The notes under the pieces are model-generated. The model was not told the origin of the DNA, made no database searches, and was given only the letters and a program-made list of their open reading frames with translations. 50,582 bases of DNA from Deltaproteobacteria bacterium. Its GTDB lineage: Bacteria > Bdellovibrionota_C > UBA2361 > SZUA-149 > JAITKM01. Of this stretch, positions 16,717 to 50,262 are shown piece after piece (within the stretch, counting starts at the first letter, position 1; the number at the start of each line of letters is the position of its first letter). A program made the translations under genes and the position numbers. The stretch lies in the NCBI GenBank assembly GCA_031278395.1, contig JAITKM010000005.1:1-50582 (forward strand), in the 5' to 3' direction.

Positions 16717-18153
16717 TTAATCACACAGCTGCTTATGCCAGCTGCCGATTGTGCCAGCCCCAATTAACAAAAGTAAGTCATTAGGTCGCAGGATGTTTTT
16801 TAATTCAGCTTGTAAAGCTGAATCTTCTATTAACTTATAACTTTCAATATTAGATTTAACTTCACCAGAATCCAAAAGTCTTTGCATCTCATTATAAATT
16901 AGCTCAGATTTGATATTTAAATCTTCGTTTGCTTCTCTACCAGCTGGGCAATAAACTGGAGTAACCAAAGCTAGATCGGCATTTAACAGCGCTTTGGCAA
17001 ACCCCGTATAATTTTCTTTAGTTCTGGACGGTAAATGCGGTTGAAAAACAGCGATAATCCTTGCTTCTGCAAGACCTAAGACGGATTGCTTAGCCCCTAA
17101 AATAACGCTTGCAACTTCTGCGGGCAGATGAGCATAATCAGTATAGACTTTGGTTTCAGAGATTTTGCCAACCAACTCAAAACGGCGTTGGCTATTTTGG
17201 AAATTTTTAATTGCTATGACCAACTTCTCAATCGCCATAAAGTTTGAACACATTACTAAAGCTGCAACAGCATCTTCGACATTATGTTTTCCATAGAGGG
17301 GAATGGTAACTGAAATTCCTTTTTTACTTTGAAAAAGTTCTAAGAAAAAACCTGTGCCGCCTTCTATAGGTTGGAGGTTACTGGCTTGAGCAATAATTCT
17401 AGGGTCGTGTAGATTTGATTTTTCTAAAGAAAAGAATCTAACATTTTCAGAAAAATTAGGCATGAGATTTTTAATCTCAGCATCATCATAATTTAATAAA
17501 ACAAAATTTTCTTTGTTTTCAGCAATACGATTAATATAAGTAACAAAATATTCTTTAAATTTTTGATAGCTATTATCGAAATGTTCTAAGTGGTCTTTGT
17601 CAATATTTGTAACGATTAGGTGTGTCGGATGATAATGGATTAAGTTACCAAAAGCTTCACAGGCTTCATAAACAAAGCATTTGCCCGAACCAATGCGAGC
17701 ATTGGAGTTCCATTGTGGAAGAATGCCGCCAATTACACAAGTCGGGTCTAAGCTAGTTTCTGTTAACAGGTAAGCTACGATAGAACTGGTTGTGGTTTTG
17801 CCATGAGCGCCGCTAACGGCGATTGAAAATTCTTTAGTTTTTTCGAGGATAGATAACAATTCAGGTCGTTTGTAAATTTTTAGTTGACGCCTAATAGCTT
17901 CTTGGTATTCCAAATTTTCTGGGCTGACGGCATCAGTGTGAATGATGACCATGTCGTCAGTTATGTTTTCTGTAACTTGAGTGTAGTTAATCTGAATACC
18001 TAGTTTTTCTAGCTCTTTGGTAATATGTGTTGCTTGCAGATCTGAGCCGGCAACTTTATAGCCTTCAGCAGCTAAAATATTAGCTAAGGCGGACATTCCA
18101 GCACCGCCAATGCCTATAAAATAGTAACTATTTTTTTTATTTAGTGTTTGCAT
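16717..18153 (-). CDS. murC: UDP-N-acetylmuramate--L-alanine ligase
   Basis: 478 residues, normal for MurC. The Rossmann start YYFIGIGGAGMSALANILA is followed by the ATP P-loop SGAHGKTTTSSIVAYLL. VYEACEAFGNLIHYHPTHL and VTNIDKDHLEHF form the metal/substrate region. The C-terminal domain contains VYTDYAHLPAEV. It adds L-Ala to UDP-MurNAc in the cytoplasm, the first step of the stem peptide. The N-terminal GIGGAGM form separates MurC from MurD/E/F; Mpl is an alternative but less likely. It follows the SPL-like gene by 25 bases on the same strand. Confidence 0.92.
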   Translation of the reverse strand: MQTLNKKNSYYFIGIGGAGMSALANILAAEGYKVAGSDLQATHITKELEKLGIQINYTQVTENITDDMVIIHTDAVSPENLEYQEAIRRQLKIYKRPELLSILEKTKEFSIAVSGAHGKTTTSSIVAYLLTETSLDPTCVIGGILPQWNSNARIGSGKCFVYEACEAFGNLIHYHPTHLIVTNIDKDHLEHFDNSYQKFKEYFVTYINRIAENKENFVLLNYDDAEIKNLMPNFSENVRFFSLEKSNLHDPRIIAQASNLQPIEGGTGFFLELFQSKKGISVTIPLYGKHNVEDAVAALVMCSNFMAIEKLVIAIKNFQNSQRRFELVGKISETKVYTDYAHLPAEVASVILGAKQSVLGLAEARIIAVFQPHLPSRTKENYTGFAKALLNADLALVTPVYCPAGREANEDLNIKSELIYNEMQRLLDSGEVKSNIESYKLIEDSALQAELKNILRPNDLLLLIGAGTIGSWHKQLCD

Positions 18154-18178: not shown

Positions 18179-19180
18179 TTAAGCGGCGGCAAATAAATTT
18201 AATTGATTTTCATTAGCCTTAGTTAAGTCAAGTTCTGGCAATTCTAACTTGGCTGGGGCGATTTCTTTGAGGGCATTATAAACATTAGCATATGCTAGAG
18301 GTCTTAAAAATTTAACTTGATTATGAAAGGTTAATTTTCCGGCTAATTCTAAGTCACGTAGTTGTATTTCTTCACTTTGAATACCGTTGGCTAAAGAACC
18401 AAAAGAAATATAGTCACTGTGATTATCTAAGACTTCAGCAAAACTCCAAGCATCTCTAAGGTAGTCGCCATATGGTAAAATAGGCGAAACTACGAGATTA
18501 ACTTTAATACCTTGGGTTCTCAAAGAGTCTGCAGCGAGCAGTCGAGCAGTAATTTTAGGTTGCCCCGGCGTATAAAGAGCTACGCTTTTTTCCTGTATTG
18601 TTTCAATATTAATTGCTACTACGGCTTTATTATCCAAGTACTTTAAGAAAGGTAGTGCTGCCAGAACTAGCGCCGAACGTGTTTGGACAACCACAAATCC
18701 GGGTTGATATTTTTCTAGTAAGTTTATGCAACCCATCGTGAGTTGATGTTTTAATTCAAAAGACCAAAATGGATCGCTAGTTAAACCGAAATAAAAAACA
18801 GATTTCTGCAAAATATTTCGCTTGTGATAGTAAGCTAAAAAATGTTCTAACTCTTGCAAAGCATTTTCTTTATAAACGAAAAATTTTCCGTTTGGAATTT
18901 GATAGTCTTTAGTTTCTTTTAATCTGAGATGAAAACTATTAGCTAGAAAGCCTAGCCCATGGCTGGCGGCTCCATCATCGAGGATTTGATTTTGTTTATG
19001 ATGCGCTAAGCTAATACCGTTTGGATAGATACTTAGAGAAAAAATATTTTCAGAAGTTGAATGCCAAACATTTTTTATTTCTGTATTCATAAATTTTTGT
19101 TTTGGGTCGGCGCTAAACGTCGAAAAATTAAAACTGCTGTCAAGATAATTTGTTTTTTTATTTTGCTTTATTGCTTTCAT
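18179..19180 (-). CDS. Radical-SAM-fold protein of the SPL family without cluster cysteines
   Basis: 333 residues, starting behind a strong AGGAGGA. From residue 127 on it reads like the spore-photoproduct-lyase/Rv2578c radical-SAM group: FYFGLTSDPFWSFE, GFVVVQTRSALVLAALPFL, AVVAINIET, YTPGQPKITARLLAADSL, GIKVNLVVSPILP. These are the strands and loops that normally follow the CxxxCxxC cluster loop. Here the whole protein contains a single Cys (C151), and the N-terminal 100 residues have no cluster loop. It therefore cannot hold the radical-SAM [4Fe-4S] cluster and is probably a non-catalytic homologue. murC follows 25 bases downstream, suggesting a shared transcript. Confidence 0.65.
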   Translation of the reverse strand: MKAIKQNKKTNYLDSSFNFSTFSADPKQKFMNTEIKNVWHSTSENIFSLSIYPNGISLAHHKQNQILDDGAASHGLGFLANSFHLRLKETKDYQIPNGKFFVYKENALQELEHFLAYYHKRNILQKSVFYFGLTSDPFWSFELKHQLTMGCINLLEKYQPGFVVVQTRSALVLAALPFLKYLDNKAVVAINIETIQEKSVALYTPGQPKITARLLAADSLRTQGIKVNLVVSPILPYGDYLRDAWSFAEVLDNHSDYISFGSLANGIQSEEIQLRDLELAGKLTFHNQVKFLRPLAYANVYNALKEIAPAKLELPELDLTKANENQLNLFAAA

Positions 19181-19810
19181 ACAAATATCCTCCTGTTATT
19201 AATTTAATAGTCTATTACTGTATTACTTACCAGAAAGCAGGAACGACTATAGCACTTTTTCAATTTAGTTCAAGTTATTTAAATGAAAATAACTTCAAAC
19301 GTATTAAATTAAACTAGTCTAACTTATTAATTAAATTTAAAAATATTTCTCTAGTTTAATATCATACTATAGAATGTGCATTCTTAATAAGATATATCAT
19401 ACTAAAAGTAATAGTAATTATTATTAATTATTTTAATATGTTTTAAACGGAGTAATCGAGAATTTTAGAGATTTATTTCATATTAAAAAAATGATTATAA
19501 AAATATAAACGTTAGCCTTGTCATCAAGTAGCTTTCAATAATTTTGGTAAAAAAATATCAATATATTAATTATTAACTATACTCTTCGAGGAGGATTTCA
19601 ATACAAAGCATTGACAATGTGGACGCCCAGCTTAAGTCAAGTTTAGAAAATTTTCAATCTAGTATGTGACAGCGCGGATTCCAGTATGTCATCCTTGCTA
19701 CCTTCAGATAACGGATAATGTTTTAAGCTGAACACTAGAAAGGGAGCTTTGATTTGTGGTTTACCTACAATAACTAGAATTTTTTTCACATTGATTGTAT
19801 TTTACACAAT
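19181..19810. other. Long AT-rich intergenic stretch
   Basis: Six hundred and thirty bases between the SPL-like gene (-) and the end of the H1-like gene (-). No supported reading frame, tRNA or structured RNA was seen. The first 400 bases are very AT-rich, and 19600-19750 is more mixed and might be decayed coding DNA, but no frame is readable. The promoter of the SPL-murC operon should lie in the first 150 bases. Confidence 0.5.
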
Positions 19811-19903: not shown

Positions 19904-20134
19904 TTATTTCTTTTTAGCAACTTTCTTTGTAGCTTTTTTAGCTGGAGCCTTTTTAGCCGGAGCTTTTTTAGCAGGGGCTTTCTTAGCCGGAGCTTTTTTA
20001 GCTGTGCAAGTACAACCACAAGTTGGAGCTGCTTTTTTAGTAGCCTTTTTAGCAGGAGCTTTCTTAGCCGGAGCTTTTTTAGCTGCTGGTTTTTTAGCTA
20101 CTGTTTTTTTAACTGCTTTTTTCTTAGTTACCAT
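19904..20134 (-). CDS. Histone H1-like Lys/Ala/Pro-rich DNA-binding protein
   Basis: 76 residues, almost wholly built of AKKAPAKKA-type pentapeptide repeats in two blocks, as in bacterial H1/Hc-like proteins and the C-terminal tails of some HU proteins. Such proteins bind and compact DNA through charge. Between the blocks (about residues 38-45) lies PTCGCTCT with three Cys as CxCxC, which is not part of the usual repeat and could bind metal or form disulfides. AGGA lies upstream of the ATG and a strong terminator follows, so this is a complete single-gene unit. The mirrored plus-strand Phe/Leu-rich frames are shadows of the repeat. Confidence 0.8.
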   Translation of the reverse strand: MVTKKKAVKKTVAKKPAAKKAPAKKAPAKKATKKAAPTCGCTCTAKKAPAKKAPAKKAPAKKAPAKKATKKVAKKK

Positions 20135-47151: not shown

Positions 47152-50100
47152 CTACTTACTTACCAACTCCCACAGCCTGTCGTAGCTGTTCACAATATCA
47201 TACTTCACATTATCGCCGCTGATAGCGCGAAAATGCTCGCGGGCGCAGTGGGCTTTTGCCTTTTCAATATCACGTAGTTCCAAGGAGGACATATTACCCT
47301 TAGTCTCAGCGACAAAGTAAATGTGCTTGACCTTTCCCTCGTAGAACGCTATCGCCCAGTCCGGGTTATACTTGCCGACGGGAGTGCTGATATAAAAGCC
47401 CTTCGGCAACTTCACATAGACCTCGACCTCTCCACTGTGAGTTTCGAGTTCGGCGGCAAAGTCACGCTCGGTGGTGGAGTCGTAGATAACATAGTTATAA
47501 AGATGCCGTCCGGTTGCCATAGTGTTTACACCCAATGCTCCCTTTTTTAGGTCAGGCTCGGTAAAGATGTCCGTGCTGAATACCTCAGTCAGCTTGTTGT
47601 AGGTGATGTGTTCGATAATCGTCGTGGCTTTCTGCTCGTTTATGATGTTGGCAGCGCGGATAATAAACTCTTCAGGGTTGTTGCTGAACTGCTCAAAGAC
47701 AGCCTTTTCAATGCTGGTCAGGATAGCAACCACGGCTTGACGGGTTAGTCCTGTTTCACTGACAATTTTCCCCACAAGGTCATAGCGAACCGAGTTGCTC
47801 GCCTTCATTGCTGTATAAGCTGATGCTTTCTCACGCACCATAGTGGCGTGGACAAAGCCCTCGCCCGAAAGAAGTTGATCTTTGGAAGTGAGTGTTTTTG
47901 CCTGTTCACCTTGCTCAACCTTGAAGTAAATTTTTGATACCCGGAGCCGCTTGTTCAATTCAGCAATTGCTTTACTCACCAGTTCGTCCTCGTCAAAGCC
48001 GACGATGTAATAACTTCTGCCGTTGATGTGCGACCAAAGTTCTTGAAACGCCTTGTTGTTCAGCTTGGACTGGTCGAGCGTGAGCTCCACATTGTTCTTG
48101 CGGGCATTCTCCGGCTTGCTCACGTTCGGGTCGTAGACGGAATCCAGCACGGCGATAATGTCGGCGGTTCTGCCTTTTGCTTCCTCCGCCATTTCGAGCG
48201 TTCCGTTTTTCTTTGCTTCGTAATATTTCTCGGTGAGTTCACTGCGCTTCACATACCCGTTTTTAATCAGGCTTTCGTGGATAACAACGGCGGCATCCTC
48301 ACCGAATTTTTCTACAAACAACTTTGCCTCAACCTTGCGCGGACGGTCGGCGACCGCCTCAGCAATCTCGCTTTGCAAGCCCTTAGCAAAACTATCATAG
48401 CTTTCGTTAGCGATGACGGTCAGGACATTGACATTGTGTATCTCGTCGCGGGTGAGGACGTTCTCATCCATGCGTTCACCGTTCTGGTTGACTGCAAGGC
48501 GCAAGCCCCGCCCGACTTCCTGACGTTTGCGGACATCGCTGCCGCTTTGCTTCAGGGTGCAAATCTGGAACACGTTTGGGTTATCCCAGCCTTCGCGCAG
48601 CGCGGAGTGCGAGAAGATAAATCGCACAGGCTCGCGACGGTCAAGCAAACGCTCCTTGTCCTTCATAATCAGGTCATAGGCGTCGGCATCGTCGGAGGTG
48701 CGTTCCTTCTTGTCGCCGAGTTTGCTGTCAATCATGCGCCCGCTTTTTTTATCAATGGAGAAATACCCTGCGTGTGTCCGCTCTGCAGATATGCCTGATA
48801 GGTATTCCAAATACTCCGGCGAGTTCTCAAGGGACAACTGCATATTACTGATGACAGCTTTATACTCTTCCTCGAAAATCTGTGCGTATGTGCCGCCTAT
48901 TGCATTGTCGTGGGCGTCGTATTGCTTGTACTTTGCCACTTCGTCGATGAAGAACAGGGACAGGACTTTGATACCCTTGGCGAAAAGCTGACGCTCGCGC
49001 TCGATGTGTGAGAGGATGGTTTCCCTTATCTGAATGCGGCGCAGTCGTTCCTCGGAGACCGAGCCGATGACGTCCCCCGCAAACAACTTCTTGCCATTAG
49101 TGAATTCCACGGAGGAATCACGTCCGTCAATTCGTAGGACGGTATAGCCGTCTTTGTACTCGGCAAGTTCGCCGGAGTTGTCAAACAGGCTGTAGCCTTC
49201 GCTGACCACGCGTGAGGCTTTTCGTATTCCCGTGCCGCCTTTCACGTCAAACTCAATCGTCGCCGTGGGGTTTCCCTTGGAGAGGTTGATTCCCTGAATA
49301 TAGACATAGCCTTCGGTGGCAGTACTACCAGAAACGGAAATGCCCTTGACGGCTATCTTTTTTACGAGCCGCTTGTTGTAAGCTTCCAGAGCGTCGAGGC
49401 GATAAATCATGTTGTAAATGCTATCTACTCTGTGGGTTGCTGAATAGCGGAGAGTGACAAGCGGAGCGAACTCTTTCAACCTCTCTTTAGTTGCCGCGCC
49501 TTCCACGGACTGCGGCTCGTCGATAATCAGAATCGGGTTCGTCTTTGCCAAAATGTCAATCGGGCGGCGGGAGCGGAACTCGTCCAGCTTCATATAAATG
49601 CGTCGCGCATCCTTGCCCCGGACATTAAACGCCTGGCTGTTAATAATCATCACGTTGATTGCGCTGTCTGAGGCAAAGCGGTCTATCTCTGTCAGCTGCG
49701 CGGAGTTGTAGATGAAGAAGCGAATTTTCTTTCCGTAGTCCTCGGCAAAATGCCCCTCAGTCATCTGGAAGGACTTATATACTCCCTCGCGGATGGCGAC
49801 GCTCGGCACGACGATAATGAACTTGCTCCACCCGTAACGCTTATTGAGTTCATACATCGTCTTGATGTAGGTGTATGTCTTGCCCACGCCTGTTTCCATC
49901 TCAATGCAGAGTTGCAGACTATCGCTCTTTTCAGTTTTTTTTATCTTCCCCTTGCCTTTTTCTTCAACTTTTTTGTTGTGTTCCGTAGATCTTAAACTTA
50001 ACTCCGATGTATATAGATCTTCTGATGGTTTGATGCGTCCGGCGCGTTGGATCGTGCGGATATTTTCCAAAACCTTGTTGTCGCTGATAGCCACGGGCGC

Positions 50101-50262
50101 ATTATTAAAGCCCGTGAACTTTTTTGTATCGTCAAGGCTCATTTGACCTAAGCCACGGTCAATCATATATGTCGGCGCGTGGAACGGCTGCCCCGCGAAC
50201 ACATTGCAGACGGCGGTTGCTGCGTCTGACTGGAATTGCTGATGTCTAAACTGTAATTTCAT
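47152..50262 (-). CDS. Type III restriction enzyme Res subunit (helicase-nuclease)
   Basis: 1036 residues, full length for Res. Walker A ETGVGKTYT (G125-T129) and Walker B IIDEPQ (D248-Q251) belong to the SF2 helicase core. RQEVGRGLRLAVN is motif VI. Near the C-terminus NPDWAIAFYEGKVKHIYFVAETKGN (read as parts NPDWAIAF and FVAETKGN) is the PD...(D/E)xK nuclease site. With a Mod subunit it cuts DNA between two unmodified sites using ATP. Its start overlaps the stop of the YhcG-like gene by four bases (ATGA). The region is clearly GC-richer than the rest of the window, suggesting recent transfer. No intact mod gene lies within the window. Confidence 0.93.
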   Translation of the reverse strand: MKLQFRHQQFQSDAATAVCNVFAGQPFHAPTYMIDRGLGQMSLDDTKKFTGFNNAPVAISDNKVLENIRTIQRAGRIKPSEDLYTSELSLRSTEHNKKVEEKGKGKIKKTEKSDSLQLCIEMETGVGKTYTYIKTMYELNKRYGWSKFIIVVPSVAIREGVYKSFQMTEGHFAEDYGKKIRFFIYNSAQLTEIDRFASDSAINVMIINSQAFNVRGKDARRIYMKLDEFRSRRPIDILAKTNPILIIDEPQSVEGAATKERLKEFAPLVTLRYSATHRVDSIYNMIYRLDALEAYNKRLVKKIAVKGISVSGSTATEGYVYIQGINLSKGNPTATIEFDVKGGTGIRKASRVVSEGYSLFDNSGELAEYKDGYTVLRIDGRDSSVEFTNGKKLFAGDVIGSVSEERLRRIQIRETILSHIERERQLFAKGIKVLSLFFIDEVAKYKQYDAHDNAIGGTYAQIFEEEYKAVISNMQLSLENSPEYLEYLSGISAERTHAGYFSIDKKSGRMIDSKLGDKKERTSDDADAYDLIMKDKERLLDRREPVRFIFSHSALREGWDNPNVFQICTLKQSGSDVRKRQEVGRGLRLAVNQNGERMDENVLTRDEIHNVNVLTVIANESYDSFAKGLQSEIAEAVADRPRKVEAKLFVEKFGEDAAVVIHESLIKNGYVKRSELTEKYYEAKKNGTLEMAEEAKGRTADIIAVLDSVYDPNVSKPENARKNNVELTLDQSKLNNKAFQELWSHINGRSYYIVGFDEDELVSKAIAELNKRLRVSKIYFKVEQGEQAKTLTSKDQLLSGEGFVHATMVREKASAYTAMKASNSVRYDLVGKIVSETGLTRQAVVAILTSIEKAVFEQFSNNPEEFIIRAANIINEQKATTIIEHITYNKLTEVFSTDIFTEPDLKKGALGVNTMATGRHLYNYVIYDSTTERDFAAELETHSGEVEVYVKLPKGFYISTPVGKYNPDWAIAFYEGKVKHIYFVAETKGNMSSLELRDIEKAKAHCAREHFRAISGDNVKYDIVNSYDRLWELVSK

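Follow-up and report, generated by a model that had tools for sequence, protein, structure and literature searches.

Spore photoproduct lyase (SPL) repairs the spore photoproduct through radical chemistry, and its structures (PDB 4fhc-4fhg, 4k9r and 4rh0) are the closest structural neighbours of the protein considered here (Foldseek prob 1.00, TM about 0.36-0.43), which differs from SPL in having no cluster and an identity of 14-21 %. Also related are the PA0069 (NF033668) and Rv2578c (NF038135) proteins, a large and unexplained radical-SAM group of proteobacteria and actinobacteria that has in common with our protein a central barrel (residues about 100-237), the motifs TDPY/F, QTRSP and LP, and a C-terminal QLxLF-type tail, but that, unlike it, keeps the cluster loop CX3CX2C. 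The tail brings in a further set of described systems. The consensus for binding to the beta sliding clamp is QL[S/D]LF or QxxLF, with positions 1, 4 and 5 being critical (PMC12309361), and the motif is often C-terminal (PMC4549789). PolC and many transposases are clamp clients with the same QLxLF sequence in the same near-C-terminal place (PMC12309361, PMC4549789), although their folds are unrelated to that of the cluster-less family, whose own clamp binding is putative. Finally, Escherichia coli Hda, which inactivates DnaA using its clamp-binding site, is a clamp-docked factor that is not a polymerase, as is proposed below for the cluster-less protein, along with a possible link to dnaA; Hda, however, is an AAA+ protein with an N-terminal clamp site (PMC5742627), so the analogy is one of logic only.

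The window, i.e. the whole stretch of DNA that was analysed, is a contig of 50,582 nt (JAITKM010000005.1, assembly GCA_031278395.1) from a Deltaproteobacteria bacterium within the GTDB class UBA2361, and this lineage is, to our knowledge, represented only by metagenomes. The gene, its expression signals and its downstream neighbour are as follows.

18179-19180, minus strand: cluster-less SPL-like radical-SAM-fold protein, an intact ORF of 333 codons with an ATG start (333 aa), based on the ORF, partial NCBIfam matches, AF2 plus Foldseek, and presence in 37/45 class genomes
19189-19194, minus strand: Shine-Dalgarno AGGAGG, a strong ribosome-binding site, from the sequence
19246-19273, minus strand: promoter-like TTGAAC-16-TATAGT, a consensus match found by eye
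19294-19308, minus strand: operator copy 1, TTTAATACGTTTGAA, from the core-site scan
19269-19283, minus strand: operator copy 2, TTTAAATAACTTGAA, overlapping the -35, from the core-site scan
16717-18153, minus strand: murC (ORF; profile match to TIGR01082, 381 bits), 25 nt downstream and not a conserved neighbour

The initial annotation of this ORF had described the post-cluster body of the SPL/Rv2578c radical-SAM group, without a CxxxCxxC loop and with one Cys (C151) in 333 residues. The single Cys and the absence of CX3CX2C were confirmed, all four of the motifs quoted in its support are present, and the radical-SAM kinship is real, being weak by sequence and clear by predicted structure. 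Among NCBIfam models, partial matches were obtained to PA0069 (4e-11, residues 102-236) and Rv2578c (1e-7); at 42.5 bits, the match to NF033668 lies under the curated cut-off of 360 bits and the protein is not assigned to that family. The window protein had no Pfam match and, by sequence, no PDB match of note. Within the wider family, PF04055 (Radical_SAM) was matched by 16 of 30 members (best 3e-6), and the SPL model PF20903 by four of 30 (best E 0.012), the window protein not among them, which places it outside SPL proper. The AF2 model of the window protein (pLDDT 85.7, pTM 0.84) returned SPL first when compared with the PDB using Foldseek (E 4e-5, prob 1.00), and nearly all top structural matches by Foldseek and VIA-align were radical-SAM proteins, pointing to a radical-SAM barrel. 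A second model built from 22 cluster-less sequences only (pLDDT 76.7) again had radical-SAM proteins, viperin and others, as its first structural matches; hence, cluster-bearing sequences in the alignment are not what produces the fold.

Such a homologue had been thought rare, a view that the class sample overturns. Among 45 genomes, i.e. the window's own, 14 from the same order and 30 from the same class, 37 encode a homologue, and the eight that do not include several small genomes. CX3CX2C is absent from all 30 homologues read, and no Cys is conserved anywhere in the cluster-less family. When 22 cluster-less members were aligned with 28 cluster-bearing relatives, the column of the first cluster Cys was Ile in 22/22 cluster-less members, the three cluster columns reading I, variable and F-Y-L. 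Three aligned positions are given here for the window protein.

19013-19018, minus strand: G55-I56, where cluster-bearing relatives have G-C, the first cluster Cys
18773-18775, minus strand: D136 (TSDPF; TDPY in relatives), invariant in both groups
18674-18685, minus strand: Q166-T167-R168-S169, invariant in cluster-less and cluster-bearing proteins

Besides D136 and QTRS, P205, R213, P233 and LP are common to both groups, and the SAM-pocket residues are in part kept and in part lost. Only the cluster-bearing proteins are near-invariant at positions 97 (W), 142 (E), 149 (R), 175 (D) and 200 (R), and since conservation is missing there in the cluster-less members, these may no longer bind the ancestral ligand. 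On the other hand, the family has acquired invariants of its own, namely E112, G132, F138, F141, Y237-G238-D239, L283, L292, Q326 and F330, and dN values of 0.07-0.31 with saturated dS among its members indicate purifying selection. In a maximum-likelihood tree, all of the cluster-less proteins, including the second paralogue (B) described below, form a single clade, which a branch with 100/100 support and a length of 1.69 separates from all cluster-bearing relatives, a topology that fits a single old loss of the cluster. A cluster-bearing PA0069 gene scored above cut-off in only five of 57 genomes searched; since these five also hold a cluster-less protein, the two kinds can coexist. No radical-SAM barrel lacking its cluster and conserved throughout a class was described in the literature searched.

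A near-invariant feature of the family lies at its C-terminus, where two elements can be recognized.

18191-18205, minus strand: QLNLF, residues 326-330, a putative sliding-clamp-binding motif, Q and F being invariant in 30/30 aligned members
18182-18190, minus strand: terminal AAA (mostly -AA in the family), a possible ClpXP-type degron; -AA in 23/32 first copies (A) and 6/6 paralogues B, base rate 6/281

The tail motif Q[LMVI]x[LMI]F was present in 30 of the 31 family members, the remaining one being truncated by a contig end, whereas the 309 other ORFs of these neighbourhoods all lacked it. Its Q and F are invariant while the linker before them varies, and the tail blocks of the AF2 model have a pLDDT of about 71-73, i.e. 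the conserved motif sits in an accessible tail. Taken from the sequence, this suggests that the protein would bind the beta sliding clamp, although the motif is only five residues long, which counts against such a reading. Of 14 distinct cluster-bearing PA0069/Rv2578c proteins, 13 have a tail ending in Qxx[LM][FL] (motif scored at loci L294-L301, L303, L062, L064, L065 and L067), the 14 having been drawn from Sinorhizobium, Aeromonas, Paracoccus, Legionella, Sphingomonas, Azospirillum, Methylobacterium, Tsukamurella, Streptomyces and the window's class; nothing linking PA0069/Rv2578c-group radical-SAM proteins to the sliding clamp was found in the literature searched. The -AA ends, which are missing from most members of one family, resemble the C-terminal alanines recognized by Clp proteases (PMC9775585), making a ClpXP degron possible.

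Upstream of essentially every copy of the cluster-less gene is the palindrome ACTTYAAN5TTRAAGT, which in the wider class often occurs as two copies spaced by about 42-43 bp, TTGAAC being a possible -35. There were 50 core sites in the 350-bp upstreams of 32 genes, two of them in the window, vs 14 in 480,751 bp elsewhere; the gene starts of the two upstreams without a site were probably set too early. Genome-wide, in a survey that was a sample of class genomes, strict sites were seen before mraZ, dnaA, smc, scpA, parB, recJ and a few others, with genes named by sequence reading and mraZ, dnaA, recJ and parB confirmed with family models. A loose-pattern scan was too noisy on its own. A matrix scan was compared with dinucleotide shuffles. 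At 15 bits or more, sites preceded mraZ in 10/30 cases (0.07 expected from shuffles), dnaA in 8/30 (0.05), recJ in 4/29 (0.05) and parB in 2/30 (0.07). At 12 bits or more, mraZ sites were spread over five families and recJ sites over three, and most dnaA sites came from a single genus. The window's own genome has no operator site at mraZ and only a degenerate one at dnaA, and the smc, scpA and parB sites, being single or few cases, are not claimed as part of the regulon. The promoters of lexA have a box of their own, and Y-family polymerase (polY) upstreams had no operator at 15 bits or more (0/19); SOS/LexA control of the cluster-less gene was therefore rejected. That other box, a TAGTAT-N8-ATACTA-like element seen by eye upstream of lexA (L210-L225), is likely the lexA box of the class. 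Operator sites of at least 15 bits did occur at 2/17 lexA genes, in both cases before a divergent small gene, which encodes a conserved protein of 107-111 aa (L210, L226) with the operator in its promoter.

Based on these data, it is reasonably likely that the cluster-less protein is a non-radical, clamp-tethered pseudo-enzyme that is controlled with replication and division and acts at the replication fork. In such a scheme, an ancestor related to SPL-like radical-SAM proteins would have lost the [4Fe-4S] loop once, early in the class; the barrel, together with some of the ancestral pocket, would have stayed, probably to bind DNA or a ligand resembling a nucleotide. The flexible C-terminal QLxLF peptide would dock the protein on the beta sliding clamp, allowing it to work at or behind the fork without radical chemistry; the operator in common with mraZ, dnaA and recJ would put its synthesis within the replication/division programme, and the terminal -AA may permit its removal by ClpXP, by which it would be turned over. 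The step controlled would be either fork-coupled lesion sensing or replication control, these being the two main sub-hypotheses within the clamp reading. The common operator gives a way into the study of the cell cycle and its control in a lineage represented, as far as we know, only by metagenomes. A broader proposal, which we put forward tentatively and at less than an even chance, is that an undescribed replication/division regulon (mraZ, dnaA, recJ and perhaps parB, smc and scpA) of an uncultivated class includes this protein as a dedicated clamp-docked replication factor made from a radical-SAM fold, and that its cluster-bearing PA0069/Rv2578c cousins are clamp-tethered DNA-repair enzymes. 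The clamp-type tails would connect the PA0069/Rv2578c group to DNA replication, a link through which the function of these enzymes can be tested directly.

As a lesion-sensing adaptor, the ex-SPL barrel would recognize damaged bases, ride the clamp and recruit repair or bypass factors. This possibility, which we regard as open to considerable doubt, draws on a fold and sequence nearest to SPL/PA0069, on the retention of QTRS, D136 and R213, on the operator at recJ and on two records of PA0069 relatives beside PolX or near dnaE; against it are the loss of several ancestral pocket residues, the lack of the operator at polY genes and the difference of the lexA box. As a replication-timing regulator, the protein would be clamp-bound and act on DnaA or the replisome, Hda-like in logic and not in fold. 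The operator at dnaA and mraZ, the clamp-type motif, the -AA end and the precedent of Hda count in favour of this rather unlikely alternative, but profile searches found no ATPase domain, and good support for the dnaA operator comes mainly from one genus.

Outside of the clamp reading, the protein could act in the envelope, either with murC or with the LPS-core genes found downstream in the same order. The 25-base gap to murC that had prompted the suggestion of a cell-wall or nucleotide-binding role without need of radicals is as described, and because of it, murC is probably cotranscribed with the cluster-less gene in the window organism and may share the operator-controlled transcript. However, murC adjoins the gene in the window only (1/32 neighbourhoods). 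Within the order, the gene is usually followed by gmhB, an epimerase gene and heptosyltransferase genes (about half of the genomes), and in other genomes of the class it has trxA divergent to it and a thiolase gene downstream. With murC unique to the window and neighbours differing across the class, a cell-wall role has no support from synteny, and what stands of the suggestion is a role without radicals. The gene is accompanied by its own operator and the clamp-type tail rather than by constant neighbours. Among these there was no replication or repair gene, which counts against the clamp reading. The operator is found at mraZ, which heads the division and cell-wall cluster, but the conserved feature of the protein is a C-terminal clamp-type motif, and we consider the envelope explanation improbable.

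It is very improbable that radical chemistry persists in the protein by means of an unconventional cluster or one provided by a partner, for although the barrel and some pocket residues remain, the family has no conserved Cys, the window copy has a single Cys, and only in the five of 57 genomes noted above did a cluster-bearing PA0069 gene exceed the cut-off. A decayed pseudogene of a radical-SAM enzyme, the outcome that the initial annotation had named as damaging to its case and for which the lost cluster cysteines might speak, is the least credible explanation of all, as the cysteines are absent from all class homologues, the frames are open throughout, and low dN, saturated dS, new family-specific invariants and the 100/100 branch contradict it.

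Several further observations concern the family and the window. Paralogue B is a second, fast-evolving cluster-less protein (L040 2965-3753, L039 3481-4260, L031 6839-7627, L041 6131-7087, L036 8557-9375 and L063 6792-7664) whose gene is divergent from and adjoins the first copy in five genomes; it has no QLxLF, but a -AA end and the operator of the first copy are present in all six. Because this adjacent divergent paralogue in those five genomes is cluster-less too, the idea that a neighbouring gene encodes a catalytic partner was rejected. The Legionella PA0069-type gene adjoins PolX, and the Sphingomonas one lies near dnaE. Some cluster-bearing SPL-like proteins (L149, L156, L157, L162, L165, L167 and L168), several of them in a sister group of the PA0069 clade, instead have a QISLF/QASLF/QFELF/QIKLF-type motif near the N-terminus, another possible clamp motif. 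A defence system was ruled out by the lack of a PADLOC match, and a viral origin by the lack of a viral-contig relative, there being one weak phage record. Upstream of the cluster-less gene, positions 19904-20134 (minus strand) encode a 76-aa histone-H1-like Lys/Ala/Pro repeat protein. At 47152-50262 (minus strand), within a stretch of 51 % GC vs about 36 % around it, is a gene for a 1036-aa helicase-like protein that resembles a type III restriction subunit and was probably acquired.
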